Below the pieces are notes generated by a model that worked only from the letters and a program-made list of their open reading frames with translations, had not been told where the DNA came from and did no database searches. Below are positions 17,978 to 28,727 of a DNA stretch of 64,000 nt, in pieces; positions within the stretch are counted from its first letter, which is position 1; each line of letters starts with the position of its first letter. Location: NCBI GenBank assembly GCA_910575705.1, contig CAJTFG010000004.1, positions 62,001 through 126,000 of the forward strand. Direction: 5' to 3'. Source of the DNA: Erysipelotrichales bacterium (GTDB taxonomy: Bacteria; Bacillota_I; Bacilli_A; Erysipelotrichales; Erysipelotrichaceae). The translations under genes were made by a program, and so were the position numbers.

Positions 17978-18007
17978 TTAACCAAAAGGGTACGGGCTCA
18001 TATAATA
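17978..18007 (+). promoter_or_regulatory. Promoter of the giant repeat gene; fits both vegetative and late mother-cell consensus
   Basis: Read as a sigma-A promoter: TTAACC (17978-17983), 17 bases, TATAAT (18001-18006). Read as a sigma-K type promoter: AC (17981-17982), 16 bases, CATATAATA (17999-18007), which fits CATANNNTA exactly. Sequence alone cannot choose. Confidence 0.5.
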
Positions 18008-18052
18008 GAATGTCTTAGAGAAATCATAGGCTTATATATGAGGAGGATGAAA

Positions 18053-21000
18053 ATGAGCAAATGCAACCAAGATGACTTTCATGAAGATGTGAGGATGGAT
18101 ATGGATTGCCCATGTGAACCTTTTCTTCAAGGCTCCATGGATATTATCATTGAAGAACAGCAGGAGGATGGGACTCCTGATCAGCATGAGAACACCAGAT
18201 ATGTGAAGGTTTGCGGTTCTGTGGAGGACTGCCGTGTGTACCCGTTGAAGACAGACGGGGAAACGGGGATCGGTTCGCTTCATCTGGAGGAGATACAATC
18301 GGTAAAAAATGTCCTTGTCTTAGTGGATGAAAACGGCCAGCAGATCATGGATCAGGATGCATACGAGATTTCCTATTACGTGAACGGAGAAGAACAGCAG
18401 GAGGATCATGCCGCTGTTGTTATGTCTTGTGAGGAGCAGGAGCACCATGAGGTTCGCATCGTGATCCGGCATAAACCGATGCTGCGTCTGCATGTGACAA
18501 AGCAGCTGCGCGATGCGTGTATGGAACTGCAGGATCCTGCAGAGGATATGCGTTTTACTTTGCATTTGTGCGGTATGGGGATTTCAGAGACAATCGTGCT
18601 GGATGCGCAGAATGATTTTTCGGTATGCGTAGAGCATCTTTACCCGGGCGTTTATACGCTGGAAGAGGAAGAAGTGTGCGGATACGGCACGGTTTACCGT
18701 TTTGATGATGGCGAGGAGACAGAAACAGCACAGTTTGAATTGATAAGCGGAACGCATGATGTACAAGTCATCAATCAGCAACTGGCCGGCAGCGTTTTGA
18801 CGATCGATAAGTATATTCGCGATGAAGGCGGAGAGCTGATCAAACCGCAGGACGGGGAATGCTTTGAAGTGCGTATCATCGGGGATCAATTCGATGCCGT
18901 TTATACGCTGACATGTGAAAATGACTTTTTCATAGAACTGAGGGATCTGGAACCGGGATTTTATGATGTCAGTGAAACTTCCGGTCAATATGAAACGAGT
19001 TATTTAGTGAATCATCAGATGGAAAGCGGATATGCGCATGTAGAGGTGCGCCGCTGTGAAGCAAGCAGCGTTTTGATCATCAATACGCCGATCGGTTGCA
19101 GCGGCTGTGAGAGCCCGCTGCGTATTTGTAAGTTTATCCGCCGCTGTGACGGTTTGCTGGTACGTCCGGACGATGATGCCTGCTTCAAAGTCATGCTGTG
19201 CGGCTGTGGATTTTATCAGACGTTTAACTTGAATGCCTGCAATAATTTCTGTGTGGATATTGACAATATCTGCTGCGGAGAATATGAGATTCGTGAAATC
19301 GATAATGAATGCTATAAGACAAGCTATATCATAAATGACGGCTGTGAGCGTACAAGCGCCTATGTCTGTTTGCATGAAAATGAATGCAATGTTATCAGCA
19401 TTATCAATGAAGAACGCAACAAGGGCTGTGTCAGCATCTGTAAATTTATCCGCAACGAACGCGGGGATCTTGTGAAACCGATGAAAGGTGATCGCTTCGT
19501 CGTGACACTGAGAAGCTTCTTCTTCCGTGAAACCTTTGTATTGGATGAGCACAATGATTGGTGCATGCATTTCGATCATCTGCGGGAAGGCAGCTATGAG
19601 GTACGGGAGCGCAGTATCGACGGCTATGATACGACGTATATCGTCAATGGATGCAAGGAAAGAAAACGTGCCCGTTTTATCGTAGACGGAGATTGCGGCA
19701 ATGAGGTACGTATCGTTAATACGCCTTGCCGTGATGACTGCGGAACTTTAAAGGTATGCAAATATATGGAACTGCAAAACGGAGAACTCGTAAAGCCGAA
19801 TGCCGATGAAAGCTTTGAATTTTCGCTACAGGGACCATGTACGGATGAATGCTTTACGCTTCATGCCCGCAATCACTGGTGCGTGATACTGGAAGGATTG
19901 AAACGCGGGGATTATACGATAACGGAACAATGTGCCGGTGGTTATGATGTTCGATATTTGGTAAACGGCTGTCCGGCGGAAACCGCAGAAGTATGTATGA
20001 ACAGTGAAAATCAAGAGGTATCGATCATCAATACGAGACCGCGCGGCGGCAATCTTACGATCGAGGCATGGATACGGGATTGTGAAGATGTGATGTGGAA
20101 ACCTTGCGGCAATGCATGTTTTGAAATCTATGTAGAGCATCGAAATGAAACACGAAGCTATACGCTGGATGCCCGCAATCGCTGGCGGATTATGCTGGAT
20201 GATCTGGAACCGGGTAAATATCGCATCATTCAGAAAGACAGCTATGGATATGAGGTAAGCTATGAGATCCAGCATGAAGAGATGGCGCATGGCGCGGTGG
20301 AATTAGACGGTAATGACCAGACCGTGAAGATCGTCAATTCCCTCAGCAACTGCCAGGGAATGGTAACGATCGAGAAAACGATCGTCGATGCGTGCGGAAA
20401 TCGAACGAAACCGTGTCCAAACAGTGAATTTACCTTCTTATTGCGTGCATCCGGACTGAAAAAACGCTTTACGTTAGATGATTCTAATGATTTCTGCGTG
20501 TACTTTGATGATTTAAGAGAAGGCATGTATCATTTGGAAGAAGAGACGGAAGGCTATGAGGTATCCTATATCGTCAATGGTATAGAAGCAGACCGCGGAC
20601 AGTTTGTTTTGGGAAGAGAGGATATTCATATCGAGGTGCGCAATACAGAGAAGCCGCAGCCGGTTTTATGCGTAGAAAAACGCATTCGCAAACAGGGACG
20701 CTTATGTATGCCGGAACCGTGTGAAAGCTATGAATTCGTCCTTACCGGAAAAGATGTTCACGAAGTATATACACTGGATGTATCCAATGACTTTACCGTA
20801 TGCTTATGCGATCTTTGCCGCCAGCATTATGAGATTCGTGAACTTCATGTAGATGGCTGTGTGTCTTATCTCATCGACGACAGTTTGCAGGCTGACGGTT
20901 ACTTCTTATTTGATGACCGGGATATGAATATAACGATCATCAATGAAGAGGGCTGCGATGATCGCGTGCGTATATGCAAGGTGATCGAGGAGAACGATCA

Positions 21001-24000
21001 GCAATTTAAGCCATACCGTTGGGAAAGCTTCGATATTCAGATTGAGGGAAGAAACTATAAGAATCGCTTTACGCTGGATTGTGATAATGGCTGGTGTATC
21101 GATATCGATCATCTGGCGCCGGGAAATTATCAGGTTCGTGAATTAGGCGATTATGACAATTCCTTTATGGTAAACGGAGAGTGCAGTAAAAACGGAAGTT
21201 TCTTTGTAGGAAGTGGTGATACAGAAGTTACGATTATCAATCATGTATGCTGCAGCGGAACACTGCAGATTGCGGCATATGATGTGGATTGCGATGAGCG
21301 GTGTATGCCAACATGCGGTAAATACAGTTTTGTATTATCCACCTGTGATTGGCAACAGACGTATACGCTGAGCCGAGAAAATGATTGGAGCTTATGCTTT
21401 GATGAACTGCCATCCGGAGATTATACTTTGGCGGCATGTGATGATCATGTACGCGTGGAAATTGACGGCGACTCCGGAAAAAAAGTCAGCTTCCATCTGG
21501 AATGCGAGACAAAGGCGGCATCGCTGCTTATCGTGCCGCAGACATGCCGGCATACCCTTGTGATCGATAAAAAGATGCGGGACGCAAACGGGAATGTATG
21601 CAAACCGGAAGAGGGGATGTATCAGATAGAAGTATGCGGCGAGGAAGGTACACAGACATTCTGCTTGCAGGAGAATAATGATTATTGTGTGGAAACGGAG
21701 CTTTCACAAGGAGAAGTGACAGTATCCGAATGCGGATATGAGGATGCTTTGTATCAGTTTAATGGCGGTCCGCTGCATAAAACTGCCCGCTTCCGGCTTT
21801 GCATGGACAGCCGGCTGACGGTTTTCAACCGCTTGTCATGCCGTTCTTCCATCTGTATACAGGGAACCGTGGAAAACTGTGAAAAAGAGATGGTTTCTCC
21901 AAGACGAGACGATTGTTTTCAGATCACGTTAAAAGGCGAATCTTATTGTGATACTATTACCTTAAACCGAAGGAACAGCTGGTGTGCATGTTTTGATGAC
22001 GTACCTGCTGGACGTTATGAGCTTTCCAGTTCATTATCGGGATATGAGAGCGTTTCTTTTGAAAAACAGAGATGCGCTCATCCTACAATATGTGTCGATG
22101 GCGATGATATCGATCTGGATGCCGTTTATAAAATGTCCTGTCATCGGGGAAGCATTGAAATTTTGAAATATCGAAAAGACGGCAGCTGCGGATGCTTTGT
22201 GCGCCCTTGCCAGAATGAAAGCTATGATATTCATGTATGGTCGGATCATTATGATGAAGTGATCGTACTAAACCGTGATAATGCATGGCGCAAGCGTCTG
22301 ACACAGCTTCCGGATGGCACCTACCATGTGGAAGAACTGCATAGTGAGGATGAGGTTTCCTATATCGTTAACGGGGGAAAAGAAAGCGAAACCGCGATCG
22401 TGGAAGTGCATGGGAATACGTCTTATGTGAAGGTACTGAATGCGAAACGAACGCAGGGAAGGGGAAGTATTGAGATCTGCAAGTTTATCAAGGGTGAGGG
22501 CATGCTGGAACGCCCGCAGCCGGATGCTTCTTACACTGTTCTTTTGAAAGGACCGAATGGGACAAAAACGTATGATCTGAATGAAGACAATGATTTTTGC
22601 GTAACGGCATCATCGTTGCCAGAAGGAACGTATGAAGTAGTGGAAGACGGGAATGAGGATAAGGTAAGCTATATCGTAAATAACGGATGTGAGACGAATC
22701 GGGGGATCGTCCATGTCATGCAGAACCATAATTGTGTGCAAGTATTGAATAAGATGCAGAGCAGGGGAAGCCTTCTCATATCCAAATTTGTGAAAGGCGA
22801 AGACGGTAAACTTCATACGCCGGATGAAACGCAGTCTTATCGGGTACACGTATCTAAGGCAAATTTTAATGAGATCATAACGCTGTCGAAAGAAAATGAT
22901 TTCAAAGAGCACCTGCGCGATTTGGATGACGGCTGGTATGTTGTCGATGAGCTGGATCATGAGGACGTGACTTACCGCATCAACGGCGGCAGCGAGGTGG
23001 ATACAGGTGCAGTTCGTATAAGAGGTGATGAACAGGATGTATGGATCATCAATCCGCAGCCATCCGCAACCGGTTCGATTACCGTAACGAAGTATATGCG
23101 TACCGACCAGCATTATCATAAACCGGCAGATACCGATGTGTTCCGCTTTCATATGTCACGGCCCGGATTTAATGAGGTATATACGCTGAACAAGGAGAAT
23201 AATTGGACTCAGGTAGTAGATTATTTGGAAGATGGCAGTTATGTTTTGCAGGAAGTTGACAGTCCTTATGAGGTCAGCTATGTCATTAACGGTGGATCGG
23301 AGACGAACTTCGGTATCGTCGATGTTCGGGGGAACGATAATACCGTATTTATGATCAATACGACACAGAACGTATCAGGAAGTATTCGCATCATGAAATA
23401 CATTCGTGCGGAAAACGGACAGCTGGAACGTCCGACAGGGGATTTCCGCGCACAGATACACGTATCGAGACCGGGATTTAATCAGTTCTATGATCTGACG
23501 AGCGCCAATGACTGGACCGTGAATATCACGGGATTGGAAAACGGACAGTATGTATTGGATGAAGTGGATGCACCGGGAGATGTCACGTATATCATCAACG
23601 GCGGCAGTGAGGTGCAAAACGGTATCGTTCGTGTACAGGATAATGCCAATCAGGTACAGATGATCAACAGTACGACGACGGTTGGAGGCAGTATCCGCGT
23701 CGTGAAGTATATCCGTGCTCAGGACGGACAGCTCATTCGTCCGCAAGCGAACTTTACCGCGCGTCTGCATGTGTCAAGACCGGGGTTCAATCAGTTTTAT
23801 GATCTGACGAGCACCAATGACTGGACTGTAAATATTACGGGATTGGAAAACGGGCAGTATGTATTGGATGAAGCGGATGCATCGGGAGATGTCACGTATA
23901 TCATCAACGGTGGCAGCGAAGTGCAAAACGGCATCGTCCGCGTACAGGATAATGCTAATCAGGTACAGATGATCAATCAGGAAACCGCATCCTCCCGCCT

Positions 24001-24988
24001 GTATTTACAAAAATACAAGAAAGACGGAAACGGCAATATGCTTCCGCCGGATGAAGGAGACGAGTTCCGTGTTCATATAACGTCCTATGATTATGATGAA
24101 ACGGTCGTATTGAATGCACAGAATGAGTTTCAGACGATATTGGAAGGACTTGCGCCGGGTTCTTATGCGGTAGAGGAACTGAACGCAGGAGGCTATCGGA
24201 CGACTTATCGGATCAACGGTGCGCAGGAAACGGAAAATGCCATCATTGAGATCATAGAAGGAAGTACGATTTCTGTAGATATCCTCAATGAGGAAATCAG
24301 CGCAGCCAGCAATTTGGATGTGTACAAATATATTGTGTATCAAAACGGAAACGTTGTGAAACCGAACCGAGATGAGGTTTTCCGTATTCGTATCTTCAAT
24401 AACGATGTTGATGAAACGTATACATTGGATGAAACGAATCGCTGGCATTTGCAGACACAGGATCTGCCGCAAGGTACGTATCAGTTGGAAGAGATTTCGC
24501 AATCCGGATATCGCGTGCAGTATCAGGTAAACGGCGGTGCTTCCAGTGATCAGGCACAGTTTACGGTTTCTCCGGGTGTTGCGAACTTTATCGAAATTAT
24601 GAATACCCGACAGATCGAGCAAGATGGTCTGCTGGAGATGACAAAACGCGTGCGAAGCCAAGACGGAGAACTTGTTATGCCTTCTAGCAACCAATCATTT
24701 GAAATACGTCTGTATAACAATATGGGATATAGCGATACGTTTACGCTGGAATCCAGAAATCGTTTTACGATGCGTGTGGCTTCCTTGACAAGAGGTGTCT
24801 ATCATGTAGAAGAGATGGGCAATACCGTTTACGATGTGACATATATGGTAAACGGCGGTACGGAAACGAGCGATTCGCGCATCGTATTAGATGGACCGGA
24901 TGTACAGACGCTGACGATCATCAACACGCGTACGGAAATGTTTTATAACATGAGCAGCGACAACAATCTCAAGATCGTGATCGAATAA
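18053..24988 (+). CDS. Giant protein of 21 tandem CnaB/prealbumin-like repeats, no export signal
   Basis: This 2,311-residue protein has a non-repeated N-terminal region (residues 1-143) and 21 tandem domains of 98-109 residues. A typical domain reads: (V/I)xKxIR...G.L.(K/R)P...F.V.L, then a tripartite L..(N)(D/N)W/F, L..G.Y.(V/L).E, GY...Y.(V/I)NG, and ends V.(I/M)(I/V)N. Lys in the first strand, Glu in the middle YxVxE and Asn in the last strand correspond to the Lys-Glu-Asn triad that makes intramolecular isopeptide bonds in CnaB/SpaA domains. By my reading the triad is complete in 18 of 21 repeats. There is no signal peptide, LPXTG motif, membrane helix or choline/SLH domain. About 94 cysteines occur up to residue 1571 and none after. 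ATG 18053 was chosen for AGGAGG 6 bases upstream. It is monocistronic. A structural cytoplasmic or spore-surface role is inference. Confidence 0.85.
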   Translation: MSKCNQDDFHEDVRMDMDCPCEPFLQGSMDIIIEEQQEDGTPDQHENTRYVKVCGSVEDCRVYPLKTDGETGIGSLHLEEIQSVKNVLVLVDENGQQIMDQDAYEISYYVNGEEQQEDHAAVVMSCEEQEHHEVRIVIRHKPMLRLHVTKQLRDACMELQDPAEDMRFTLHLCGMGISETIVLDAQNDFSVCVEHLYPGVYTLEEEEVCGYGTVYRFDDGEETETAQFELISGTHDVQVINQQLAGSVLTIDKYIRDEGGELIKPQDGECFEVRIIGDQFDAVYTLTCENDFFIELRDLEPGFYDVSETSGQYETSYLVNHQMESGYAHVEVRRCEASSVLIINTPIGCSGCESPLRICKFIRRCDGLLVRPDDDACFKVMLCGCGFYQTFNLNACNNFCVDIDNICCGEYEIREIDNECYKTSYIINDGCERTSAYVCLHENECNVISIINEERNKGCVSICKFIRNERGDLVKPMKGDRFVVTLRSFFFRETFVLDEHNDWCMHFDHLREGSYEVRERSIDGYDTTYIVNGCKERKRARFIVDGDCGNEVRIVNTPCRDDCGTLKVCKYMELQNGELVKPNADESFEFSLQGPCTDECFTLHARNHWCVILEGLKRGDYTITEQCAGGYDVRYLVNGCPAETAEVCMNSENQEVSIINTRPRGGNLTIEAWIRDCEDVMWKPCGNACFEIYVEHRNETRSYTLDARNRWRIMLDDLEPGKYRIIQKDSYGYEVSYEIQHEEMAHGAVELDGNDQTVKIVNSLSNCQGMVTIEKTIVDACGNRTKPCPNSEFTFLLRASGLKKRFTLDDSNDFCVYFDDLREGMYHLEEETEGYEVSYIVNGIEADRGQFVLGREDIHIEVRNTEKPQPVLCVEKRIRKQGRLCMPEPCESYEFVLTGKDVHEVYTLDVSNDFTVCLCDLCRQHYEIRELHVDGCVSYLIDDSLQADGYFLFDDRDMNITIINEEGCDDRVRICKVIEENDQQFKPYRWESFDIQIEGRNYKNRFTLDCDNGWCIDIDHLAPGNYQVRELGDYDNSFMVNGECSKNGSFFVGSGDTEVTIINHVCCSGTLQIAAYDVDCDERCMPTCGKYSFVLSTCDWQQTYTLSRENDWSLCFDELPSGDYTLAACDDHVRVEIDGDSGKKVSFHLECETKAASLLIVPQTCRHTLVIDKKMRDANGNVCKPEEGMYQIEVCGEEGTQTFCLQENNDYCVETELSQGEVTVSECGYEDALYQFNGGPLHKTARFRLCMDSRLTVFNRLSCRSSICIQGTVENCEKEMVSPRRDDCFQITLKGESYCDTITLNRRNSWCACFDDVPAGRYELSSSLSGYESVSFEKQRCAHPTICVDGDDIDLDAVYKMSCHRGSIEILKYRKDGSCGCFVRPCQNESYDIHVWSDHYDEVIVLNRDNAWRKRLTQLPDGTYHVEELHSEDEVSYIVNGGKESETAIVEVHGNTSYVKVLNAKRTQGRGSIEICKFIKGEGMLERPQPDASYTVLLKGPNGTKTYDLNEDNDFCVTASSLPEGTYEVVEDGNEDKVSYIVNNGCETNRGIVHVMQNHNCVQVLNKMQSRGSLLISKFVKGEDGKLHTPDETQSYRVHVSKANFNEIITLSKENDFKEHLRDLDDGWYVVDELDHEDVTYRINGGSEVDTGAVRIRGDEQDVWIINPQPSATGSITVTKYMRTDQHYHKPADTDVFRFHMSRPGFNEVYTLNKENNWTQVVDYLEDGSYVLQEVDSPYEVSYVINGGSETNFGIVDVRGNDNTVFMINTTQNVSGSIRIMKYIRAENGQLERPTGDFRAQIHVSRPGFNQFYDLTSANDWTVNITGLENGQYVLDEVDAPGDVTYIINGGSEVQNGIVRVQDNANQVQMINSTTTVGGSIRVVKYIRAQDGQLIRPQANFTARLHVSRPGFNQFYDLTSTNDWTVNITGLENGQYVLDEADASGDVTYIINGGSEVQNGIVRVQDNANQVQMINQETASSRLYLQKYKKDGNGNMLPPDEGDEFRVHITSYDYDETVVLNAQNEFQTILEGLAPGSYAVEELNAGGYRTTYRINGAQETENAIIEIIEGSTISVDILNEEISAASNLDVYKYIVYQNGNVVKPNRDEVFRIRIFNNDVDETYTLDETNRWHLQTQDLPQGTYQLEEISQSGYRVQYQVNGGASSDQAQFTVSPGVANFIEIMNTRQIEQDGLLEMTKRVRSQDGELVMPSSNQSFEIRLYNNMGYSDTFTLESRNRFTMRVASLTRGVYHVEEMGNTVYDVTYMVNGGTETSDSRIVLDGPDVQTLTIINTRTEMFYNMSSDNNLKIVIE
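18482..24985 (+). repeat. Tandem coding repeats R1-R21 of the giant gene
   Basis: Repeat starts read from the sequence: 18482, 18791, 19118, 19427, 19739, 20048, 20357, 20663, 20963, 21257, 21551, 21845, 22148, 22463, 22766, 23072, 23378, 23687, 23996, 24308, 24623. R21 is followed by a short tail. Units diverge strongly except R17 and R18. Confidence 0.85.
23378..23995 (+). repeat. Near-identical tandem pair R17-R18 (309-bp unit)
   Basis: The halves starting at 23378 and 23687 encode almost the same protein from RPGFNQFYDLTS to the closing QVQMIN, including the same NITGLENGQYVLDE block, with mostly synonymous DNA differences. This indicates a recent duplication inside an old array. Confidence 0.85.
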
Positions 24989-25217: not shown

Positions 25218-28200
25218 ATGACAAAGACGTTTATGTCAATGGATGGTAATACCGCTACTGCACATTGTGCCTATGCGTTTACCGAATTGTCTGCGATTTA
25301 TCCTATCACGCCTTCCTCACCTATGGCCGAGGTTGTCGATGTGTGGGCAAATCAGGGACGCAAGAATATTTTTGATAGCGTAGTTAAAGTAGCTGAGCTT
25401 CAGTCTGAAGGTGGAGCAGCCGGTGCTGTTCACGGTGCTTTGCAGGCAGGAACGCTGGCGACTACGTTTACGGCATCTCAGGGTCTGCTGCTGATGATTC
25501 CGAATATTTATAAGATGGTCGGCGAACTGCTTCCAGGCGTTCTGCATGTATCCGCTCGTGCTTTGGCAACCAGAGCATTGAATATCTTCGGTGATCATGA
25601 AGATATTTACGCTTGCCGTCAGACAGGGATCTGCATGCTGGCATCTCATTCCGTACAGGAAGCGATGGATCTTGCCGGAGTGGCGCATCTGTCTGCTATT
25701 AAAGCGAGTGTTCCGTTTATGCATTTCTTTGATGGATTTCGTACATCTCATGAAATTCAGAAAGTAGAAGTATTTGATACGGAAAAATTCAAAGATCTGA
25801 TTGATATGGATGCTTTGAACGCATGGCGTAAAAAAGCATTGAATCCGCATACGAATCCGGTTACCCGTGGTGGTGCGGAAAATGACGATATCTTCTTCCA
25901 GGGAGTGGAAGCACGCAATGAACATTTTGCGAAAGTTCCGGATATCGTAGCCGATTATATGAAGGAAATTTCCAAGATCACAGGGCGTGAATACGCACCG
26001 TTTACATATTATGGAGCTGCTGATGCGGAACGTATCATCGTTGCAATGGGTTCTATCACGGAAGCAGCGAAAGAGACGATCGATGCATTGACTGCAACCG
26101 GAGAAAAGGTAGGTATGATCAAAGTACATCTGTACCGTCCGTTCTCTGTTAAATATTTGACTGCGGTTCTTCCTTCTACGGTTAAGAAGATCGCGGTTCT
26201 GGATCGTACGAAAGAAACCGGCGCTATGGGCGAGCCTCTGTATCTGGATGTGCTTGCGGCGTTGAAAGATAAAGATATTGAGATTATCGGAGGACGCTAT
26301 GGTCTGGGATCTAAAGATACGCAGCCATATCATGTAAAAGCCGTATTCGATCATTTGAAGGGCGATAAGCTGATGCATAGCTTTACGATCGGCATTCATG
26401 ATGATGTTACGCATCTGAGCTTGCCATGTGATGAAAGCTTCACGACGGAAAACGATTATACATCATGTCTGTTCTGGGGTCTGGGATCTGATGGTACGGT
26501 TTCTGCGAATAAGTCAACCGTTAAGATCATCGGTGATAACACGGATCAATATGCACAGGCATATTTCGCATATGATTCTAAGAAAGCCGGCGGTGTAACG
26601 CGTTCTCACCTGCGTTTCGGAAATTCTCCGATCCGTTCTACGTACTATATCAACAATGCGGATTTCATTTCCTGCTCATTGGATGCTTATATGTTTAAGT
26701 ATGATATGGTAAGAAATATCAAAGAAGGCGGTACATTCTTGTTGAATACGACATTCTCTAAGGATGAGATCGTGGAACATATGCCGAATCGTATGAAAGC
26801 GCAGCTGGCGAAAAAACATGCGAAATTCTATATCATCAACGCTACGAAGATCGCTGCGGAGATCGGTATGGGACGCAGAACGAATACGATCCTGCAGTCT
26901 GCATTCTTCGCATTGAACGAACAGATCATGCCGTATGATACAGCAGTTGATCTCATGAAGGCGGCAGCGAAAAAATCTTACAGCAAGAAAGGCGATGCTG
27001 TCGTACAGCTGAACTATAAAGCAATCGATGCCGGAAAAGACGGAATCGTTGAAATTTCAGTAGATCCTTCTTGGGCAGATCTGCCATATAATGCAGACCG
27101 TACATTGATCGGTGACGAATACTTTGATAATCACGTGGCTGTCATCAATGGGTTGGAAGGATATGATATGCCGGTATCCGCATTTGCCGGAGACTTCCTG
27201 TTGGATGGTTCTATCCGCAACAATGTATCCTTTAATGAAAAACGTACAATCGCCGTACAGGTTCCTACATGGAAGCCGGAAAACTGTATCCAGTGCGGAT
27301 TCTGTAGCTTTGTATGTCCGCATGCTACGATCCGTCCGTTCCTGTTAACGGATGAGGAAATCAAGAATGCGCCGATGGAATTTAAAACGATCCAGGCTAT
27401 GGGCAAGGGCGTTGAGAATTTGAAATATCGTATTCAGGTCACACCTGCAAACTGCGTAGGCTGCGGTCTGTGCGCGGTTGAGTGTCCGGGTAAGGGCGGA
27501 CAGAAGGCTCTGGAAATGGTCGATATCAACGAAAAATTGGATCAGGAGCCATTGGCAGATTACCTGTTCAAACAAGTGGAATACAAGACGGAATACTTCC
27601 CGACGACGACCGTAAAGGGTTCTCAGTTCCTGATGCCTTACTTCGAGGTTTCCGGTTCTTGTCCGGGATGCGGAGAAACTCCTTACTATAAGCTGATCTC
27701 TCAGCTGTTCGGTAGAGATATGCTCGTTGCCAATGCGACAGGCTGCTCTATGATCTACTGTAGTTCTACACCGTCAACACCATTTGTAAATGATAAGAAC
27801 GGTGAAGGTGTCGCTTGGGCAAACTCTCTGTTTGAAGATAATGCGGAATTCGGTTACGGTATGGCATTGTCTCAGAACTACAAAGAAGCACGCATTTTGA
27901 AGATCATGGAAGATAACATGGATCAGGTAGAGCCGGAATTGAAAGATGCATTTGCGAAATATCTGGAAATTCACGGTGATCGCGAAGCAGAACGTGCGAT
28001 CGCTCCTACGATCAAAGAGTTGGCGGAAAAATCAGCGAATGCAGCTGTAAAAGAACTGGCCTCTGAAGATCTTATCAGTAAATCTGTATGGATCATCGGC
28101 GGTGACGGATGGGCATATGATATCGGTTACGGCGGATTGGATCACGTTCTTGCGAATAACCTGAATGTCAACGTTCTCGTATTGGATACGGAAGTATATT

Positions 28201-28727
28201 CTAATACCGGAGGACAGTCATCAAAATCAAGTCAGGCAGCTTCCATTGCGAAGTTTGCGGCCGGCGGTAAGACGACGGCGAAGAAAGACCTGGGACAGAT
28301 CGCTATGGCATACGGTCATGTATATGTTGCGCAGATCTCCATGGGTGCTGACAAGAATCAGACATTGAAAGCGATCCGTGAAGCGGAAAGCTATGATGGA
28401 CCATCTTTGATCATCGCTTATTCTCCTTGTGCAGAGCATGGTATCAAGGGCGGATTGGCAAATCATCAGATCACGCAGAAAAAAGCAGTAGAATGCGGTT
28501 ATCTTGATTTGTACCGTTATGATCCGAGAAATGAAAATAAACCTTTGACGATCGATTCCAAAGAACCGGATTTCGATAAGATGGTAGATTTCATGATGAC
28601 GGAAACTCGTTTCTCTCAGCTGCCGAAGCTGAAAGGAGAAACGGCTTATGAAATGTTTGAGAAAACAAAAGCAGATGCGATGCGCCGTCATAAGAGATTA
28701 GTAAAACTGGCTGAAGAAAATATGTAA
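25218..28727 (+). CDS. nifJ: Pyruvate:ferredoxin (flavodoxin) oxidoreductase
   Basis: This 1,169-residue single-chain enzyme oxidatively decarboxylates pyruvate to acetyl-CoA and CO2, passing electrons to ferredoxin or flavodoxin, the central fermentative step of anaerobes. It has the N-terminal pyrimidine domain (YPITPSSPMAE), the domain II transketolase-C-like part, two [4Fe-4S] motifs near residues 689 and 746 (CIQCGFCSFVCP and CVGCGLCAVECP), a cysteine-bearing GSCPGCGETPYY, and the thiamine-diphosphate motif GDGWAYDIGYGG ... NTGGQSSKSS. AAGGAGG precedes the ATG. It is transcribed alone and ends at a strong terminator. Its codon use looks like that of a highly expressed gene. Confidence 0.97.
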   Translation: MTKTFMSMDGNTATAHCAYAFTELSAIYPITPSSPMAEVVDVWANQGRKNIFDSVVKVAELQSEGGAAGAVHGALQAGTLATTFTASQGLLLMIPNIYKMVGELLPGVLHVSARALATRALNIFGDHEDIYACRQTGICMLASHSVQEAMDLAGVAHLSAIKASVPFMHFFDGFRTSHEIQKVEVFDTEKFKDLIDMDALNAWRKKALNPHTNPVTRGGAENDDIFFQGVEARNEHFAKVPDIVADYMKEISKITGREYAPFTYYGAADAERIIVAMGSITEAAKETIDALTATGEKVGMIKVHLYRPFSVKYLTAVLPSTVKKIAVLDRTKETGAMGEPLYLDVLAALKDKDIEIIGGRYGLGSKDTQPYHVKAVFDHLKGDKLMHSFTIGIHDDVTHLSLPCDESFTTENDYTSCLFWGLGSDGTVSANKSTVKIIGDNTDQYAQAYFAYDSKKAGGVTRSHLRFGNSPIRSTYYINNADFISCSLDAYMFKYDMVRNIKEGGTFLLNTTFSKDEIVEHMPNRMKAQLAKKHAKFYIINATKIAAEIGMGRRTNTILQSAFFALNEQIMPYDTAVDLMKAAAKKSYSKKGDAVVQLNYKAIDAGKDGIVEISVDPSWADLPYNADRTLIGDEYFDNHVAVINGLEGYDMPVSAFAGDFLLDGSIRNNVSFNEKRTIAVQVPTWKPENCIQCGFCSFVCPHATIRPFLLTDEEIKNAPMEFKTIQAMGKGVENLKYRIQVTPANCVGCGLCAVECPGKGGQKALEMVDINEKLDQEPLADYLFKQVEYKTEYFPTTTVKGSQFLMPYFEVSGSCPGCGETPYYKLISQLFGRDMLVANATGCSMIYCSSTPSTPFVNDKNGEGVAWANSLFEDNAEFGYGMALSQNYKEARILKIMEDNMDQVEPELKDAFAKYLEIHGDREAERAIAPTIKELAEKSANAAVKELASEDLISKSVWIIGGDGWAYDIGYGGLDHVLANNLNVNVLVLDTEVYSNTGGQSSKSSQAASIAKFAAGGKTTAKKDLGQIAMAYGHVYVAQISMGADKNQTLKAIREAESYDGPSLIIAYSPCAEHGIKGGLANHQITQKKAVECGYLDLYRYDPRNENKPLTIDSKEPDFDKMVDFMMTETRFSQLPKLKGETAYEMFEKTKADAMRRHKRLVKLAEENM

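Follow-up and report, generated by a model that had tools for sequence, protein, structure and literature searches.

Isopeptide domains of the CnaB type, such as those of the Cna B repeats (1D2O/1D2P), RrgB, PitA and Spy0128, are known from exported pili and adhesins. In 1D2O, the bond lysine is Lys633 and the catalytic glutamate is Glu694 (Table 1, PMC12617251). A Lys-Glu-Asn triad alone is no proof of a bond, as domain D1 of RrgB possesses the triad and the same topology but, according to PMC3132780, not the bond. The same article describes D1 of Corynebacterium SpaA as a CnaB domain that lacks the triad and stands next to intact ones. Covalently stabilised proteins on endospores have been described for the Bacillus cereus group, namely the Ena fibres, which contain disulphides in a helical fibre (PMC8619143), and sporesilk (as cited in PMC12617251). 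In the passages considered, neither is described as a CnaB array. Within the part of the literature covered, on intramolecular isopeptide bonds combined with spore coat, sporulation, mother cell or endospore appendage fibers, nothing similar to the locus described below was found.

We analysed a CnaB repeat protein gene in a window of 64,000 nucleotides from an Erysipelotrichales bacterium (GCA_910575705.1, contig CAJTFG010000004.1, positions 62,001 to 126,000). The encoded array shares with CnaB-type domains the fold, the strand placement, the order Lys...Glu...Asn and the arrangement as a tandem stalk. Unlike CnaB-type pilins and adhesins, it lacks a signal peptide, a sortase motif and any hydrophobic segment; its 22 domains, the cysteine-rich N-terminal two thirds and a putative spore-type promoter element set it apart as well. 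Like SpaA D1, some of its domains lack the triad next to intact ones; however, SpaA D1 has a pilin motif, whereas the triad-less repeats of the array are internal or N-terminal, lie at fixed positions and often have Gln in place of Glu. The domain class is known, and what is unusual is its occurrence in a long, apparently unexported array behind a putative spore-type promoter.

The gene lies on the forward strand at 18038..24985, with the stop codon extending to 24988, and is open throughout (2316 aa). The ATG at 18038 precedes an AGGAGG at 18041-18046, whereas the alternative ATG at 18053 follows it by 6 bases and gives MSKCNQ; orthologues likewise begin with MSK or MNK. Judged from these letters, 18053 is the likelier start. 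Cutting at strand A divided the protein into 21 tandem repeats of 98-107 aa, the first from 18482; the starts in the initial annotation sit 3 bases upstream of ours, which is a matter of definition only. The Lys column lies in strand A, the Glu column within Y-x-[ILV]-x-E and the Asn column in the last strand. All three residues are intact in R1-R5 (18482..20050), R7-R9 (20360..21259), R11 (21554..21847) and R13-R21 (22151..24928). The columns read A-Q-N in R6 (20051..20359), A-A-I in R10 (21260..21553) and G-S-Y in R12 (21848..22150), the last being A-Q-N in most orthologues. A C-terminal tail (24929..24985, +), ending in LKIVIE, closes with a short beta-like peptide that is IVIE, VVIE or ITIE in most orthologues. 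Cysteines are confined to the first two thirds of the protein, with 3-13 in each of R1-R14 and none in R15-R21. Most orthologues have a similar cysteine slope, and the maximum among 14 proteins is 97 cysteines in one protein.

A 22nd repeat, R0 (18137..18481, +; aa ~34-148), had been overlooked by the initial annotation. It is a degenerate, CnaB-like N-terminal repeat with neither Lys nor Glu in the respective triad columns. In a profile comparison, 11 orthologous N-termini matched the repeats with 94% and an E value of 1.2e-7. The AlphaFold model of R0 has pLDDT values mostly of 81-97 from residue 31 onward, and among solved structures it comes closest to CnaB domains of pilins (Z up to 10.2 over 100 residues, 7% identity). 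Read by eye from the alignment, its Glu column holds V in the window protein and Q in most orthologues. With R0 counted in, the triad is present in 18 of 22 domains; R0 was omitted from every triad count given below. Residues 1-25 of the window protein are predicted to be disordered (pLDDT <50). The stretch ahead of R0 and its HxSFLET motif are common to the orthologues (L023-L028) and weak in the window protein (18053-18136).

For the fold, we used an AlphaFold (AF2) model of R4 and a profile alignment built from 91 of 105 repeats of five genomes, from which weak or mis-cut repeats, some of them triad-less, were excluded. R4 was modelled as a CnaB-like sandwich (pLDDT 95.7, pTM 0.87), with the three triad residues in strands 2-9, 55-61 and 92-100 and the Asn in a regular last strand. 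Judged by strand placement, the refuting outcome named in the initial annotation, a structural model with the three residues far apart, did not occur. The best structural neighbours were PitA, GAS and GBS pilins, RrgB and Cna (Z 8.2 to 10.8). Since unrelated glucosyltransferase domains of like shape reach Z 9.4 against R4, the fold by itself is no proof of the CnaB class. The repeat profile matched Cna B repeats in the PDB with an E value of 3e-5, and 1d2o with 0.0099. In the 1d2o alignment, which ends before the Asn of 1d2o, the Lys column falls on chain residue 99 and the Glu column on 160. This spacing of 61 residues is the same as that between Lys633 and Glu694, which fixes the numbering offset and places the two columns on the Cna bond lysine and the catalytic glutamate. 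In Pfam, the whole protein scored 59.3 bits for SpaA (PF17802; cut-off 23.1) and 19.4 bits for Cna_B (PF05738), below the cut-off of 22.3 for the latter; most repeats taken singly score below the Pfam models. A search of NCBIfam gave no match, nor did a search of a viral structure library at E <= 0.001. By fold, Lys and Glu positions, last-strand Asn and the Pfam cut-off, the repeats are of the CnaB-type class; a covalent Lys-Asn bond, with a mass loss of about 17 Da, is predicted. Fold, alignment and the co-variation described next make it highly probable that most repeats with all three residues (KEN) carry a bond-competent triad.

Within the window protein, Lys is present in 18/21, Glu in 18/21 and Asn in 19/21 of R1-R21, and all three in 18/21. 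Our segmentation agrees with the initial annotation that the triad is missing in R6, R10 and R12, and recovered all motif strings quoted there; R10 and R12 replace the Asn, which R6 retains, also as stated. The three Lys and three Glu losses coincide exactly (Fisher p = 0.00075 within the window protein), so the claim of joint loss stands, although not as three recent events: R6, R10 and R12 are non-KEN in 7/7 same-numbered proteins, and these old losses, common to orthologues, are not three independent draws in the window genome. For the comparison among homologues, 262 repeats were cut from 14 homologous proteins and then aligned, with the partial first repeat of L039 dropped and a gap at a triad column scored as loss. 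All three residues occur in 178 repeats and none in 39; 23 have N only, 10 K only, 7 K+E, 4 E only and 1 E+N, and K+N without E does not occur. Glu is thus present in 178/178 repeats having Lys and Asn as compared with 12/84 of the others, and independent variation of the three columns in homologues, the other refuting outcome named in the initial annotation, was not observed. Lys without Glu was found in 10/262 repeats and Glu without Lys in 5/262. Asn is present in 202/262 and was retained in 23/262 after Lys and Glu had both gone.

As a control for general decay, every pair of conserved columns was compared. The triad pairs ranked 1-3 of 190 pairs, with phi of 0.85 for K-E, 0.66 for E-N and 0.58 for K-N, followed by 0.41 for the next pair (262 repeats). 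They kept ranks 1-3 of 171 pairs in 183 repeats of <60% identity, 1-3 of 153 in 139 repeats of <45% identity, and again 1-3 of 171 in a smaller set drawn from five genomes (105 repeats). On a repeat tree built with the triad columns masked, which is midpoint-rooted and poorly resolved, Lys and Glu were lost jointly on 7 branches, Lys alone on 11 and Glu alone on 9. For shared change branches, E-N, K-E and K-N ranked 1, 2 and 5 of 190 pairs. Lineage-specific joint changes were seen for R19 in four proteins, for R7 of G014, for R2 of L039/L043 and for R14 of G039. R19 reads A-Q-N in the four proteins, and their nearest other relatives are KEN; conversely, R6 of G014 is KEN though neither Lys nor Glu is present in its relatives. 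The shared losses at R6, R10 and R12 together with the exceptions at R19 and G014 R6 indicate that some positions lost the triad long ago and others recently, and certain repeat positions seem to be kept bond-free. We also considered that loss of the triad marks a collapsed repeat, which we rejected, as R10 and R12 score at full length (74.8 and 87.5 bits) and R0 models as CnaB-like.

The Glu column holds Gln in 29 repeats, 25 of which are without Lys, and 23 of these retain Asn. In the other four (R9 and R14 of L039 and L043), Lys is kept and Asn is missing. A buried Glu that has lost its Lys would carry a charge with no partner, and Gln is a plausible neutral stand-in in such a case. As far as residue patterns can tell, the change from Glu to Gln is the usual first compromise when the bond is given up.

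By hydropathy and pattern, a hydrophobic N-terminal segment, an LPXTG-like motif and a membrane-like segment are absent from all 14 proteins; the LPXTG-like search covered the last 120 residues, and L039 is an incomplete fragment. Over the first 60 residues, the highest hydropathy of any 19-residue stretch was 0.47 for the window protein and 0.19-1.48 across the 14. Upstream of the gene lies a putative mother-cell promoter, made up of AC at -35 (17981), 16 bases, and CATATAATA as the -10 element at 17999-18007 (site 17981..18007, +; G000:C4:79981-80007 in contig coordinates, from which the window coordinates follow by subtracting 62000). We take the spacing between AC and the -10 element to suit sigma-K. 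A CATATAMT element occurs upstream of 12/12 full-length genes, 28-60 bases ahead of the start, where each would be expected by chance at ~0.4-3%. AC stands 16 bases before it in 5/12 genes, the window included, and the AC -35 is missing in 7/12. The element appears to resemble the -10 of sigma-K and sigma-E promoters. PMC3789822 gives AC at -35 and CATATAAT at -10 for the C. difficile sigK P2 promoter and assigns similar -10 elements to sigma-E and sigma-K, the -35 being ATA or AC. The window -10 reads exactly CATATAAT.

Genome-wide, the 27-base promoter pattern was not enriched (11 hits as against 26 for the reversed control), and among the 11 sites only that upstream of the array gene fronts a long ORF. 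A CATA-type site was found upstream of spoIVA at 4/6 loci; G014 had none, and at the window genome (G000) the wrong ORF had been taken. YabG (PF05582), used as a second sigma-K marker, was absent from 5/5 genomes searched. SpoIVA is present in 7/7 genomes with long arrays and in 53/117 overall (hypergeometric p = 0.003, kinship not corrected), and Spo0A in 7/7 and 58/117, respectively. Twelve spoIVA-bearing genomes of the family are without the array. The missing export and sortase signals, the conserved mother-cell-like promoter element and the co-occurrence with spore genes led us to the reading that the array protein is probably a spore-surface protein made by the mother cell. As side observations, the window genome has seven matches to the Spo0A_C domain, several in paired short ORFs (C1:8911-9765, C3:175398-176226), and in G014 a 135-aa ORF with this domain (C126:12992-13303) is located directly upstream of the array gene.

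Taken as a whole, the explanation that we favour, and hold to be rather likely, is a self-locking CnaB array produced in the mother cell for the coat or exosporium. The protein would consist of 22 CnaB-type (SpaA/Cna_B) beta-sandwich domains in a row. In 18 of these, Lys of strand A and Asn of the last strand would, with the help of the buried Glu, form a spontaneous intramolecular isopeptide bond and release NH3. Once one triad partner is gone, selection on the others would end. The usual course might be replacement of Lys by a small or hydrophobic residue and of Glu by Gln, with Asn often kept, while in older cases all three would drift. The triad-less R0, R6, R10 and R12 would retain fold and position and might serve as softer links or as modules with a purpose of their own. 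Late in sporulation, the mother cell would synthesise the protein under a sigma factor suggested by the promoter element and deposit it on the forespore as part of the coat or exosporium. A wider proposal stands at about even chances: that a family of Erysipelotrichaceae makes its spore surface out of one giant cytosolic chain of ~20 self-locking CnaB domains, produced in the mother cell without secretion or sortase, with the bond deliberately omitted at a few fixed modules (small residue for Lys, Gln for Glu, Asn retained) and with disulphide cross-linking through the cysteine-rich N-terminal part.

It is unlikely, by comparison, that the array is the stalk of an ordinary surface fibrillar adhesin that leaves the cell by non-classical export and is linked to spores by accident. 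Isopeptide domains in tandem are a typical feature of fibrillar adhesins and pilins (section 2.2 of PMC12617251), and other CnaB proteins of related genomes (L031, L032) have signal peptides and LPXTG-like ends. It is these very features, signal peptide, LPXTG-like motif and hydrophobic segment, that are absent in 14/14 array proteins, and an accidental link to spores would have to accommodate SpoIVA and Spo0A in all seven array genomes, the conserved CATATAMT element and as many as 97 cysteines per protein.

Two further alternatives accept the domain class and question the bond or the coupling. Lys, Glu and Asn might merely build a buried hydrogen-bond or salt-bridge cluster that serves folding, with no covalent bond in most repeats, as in RrgB D1 with its unbonded triad in the same topology (PMC3132780); any interacting cluster would be expected to co-vary. 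We regard this as improbable, because the columns align to the Cna bond Lys and catalytic Glu, and because strand G of RrgB D1 leaves strand A owing to the pilin motif, as PMC3132780 explains, whereas the Asn of the R4 model lies in a regular last strand. Still less credible, and to our minds very improbable, is that joint loss reflects nothing but shared ancestry or general decay of repeats without functional coupling. The losses at R6, R10 and R12 are indeed old and common to orthologues, and in G039, G051 and G012, the proteins that diverge most, the majority of repeats no longer have the triad. Against this, other equally conserved columns do not co-vary (0.41 for the next pair versus 0.58-0.85), the co-variation persists at <45% identity, joint losses arose in single lineages in repeats whose nearest relatives are KEN, and Gln at the Glu column accompanies the loss of Lys in 25/29 cases. 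We thus retain the bond-forming triad as the predicted basis of the joint loss, as the initial annotation had suggested when it deemed coincidence unlikely; fold, Cna alignment and co-variation in homologues all back it.

If the favoured explanation is true, isopeptide chemistry known from exported pili and adhesins would also operate in the cytosol of the mother cell and on the surface of the spore, and the array would help to explain why the spores of a little-studied gut family are tough. The repeats also serve as a natural experiment, in that 262 of them reveal which residues change when a self-forming bond is abandoned.

A whole-protein search returned matches in 11/117 genomes at E <= 0.001, and the domain profile located long arrays of 14 to 22 repeats in 7/117 (G000, G042, G049, G053, G014, G051, G039). 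A scan of named genomes yielded six further proteins, plus four that represent the same loci, with Longicatena caecimuris DSM 29481 and Amedibacillus dolichus DSM 3991 among the genomes. Such relatives point to an Erysipelotrichaceae-like bacterium as the bearer of the window. In the most divergent arrays, L027 (G039) and L028 (G051), the triad is kept in 3/16 and 4/17 repeats, respectively, and both genomes have spoIVA; the isopeptide bond may be dispensable in these two. G012 has a 507-aa copy (L029 6658-8178) with five repeats, none of them KEN, and four domain-profile matches. It has the same neighbour gene and neither the CATATAMT element nor the AC ahead of it, and its genome has Spo0A and no SpoIVA match; possibly it is a decaying copy. 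With no functional link apparent, the pyruvate:ferredoxin oxidoreductase gene (25218-28727 in the window) adjoins the array or its short form at 8/13 loci, which are the window, L024, L025, L026, L027, L028, L029 and L034.
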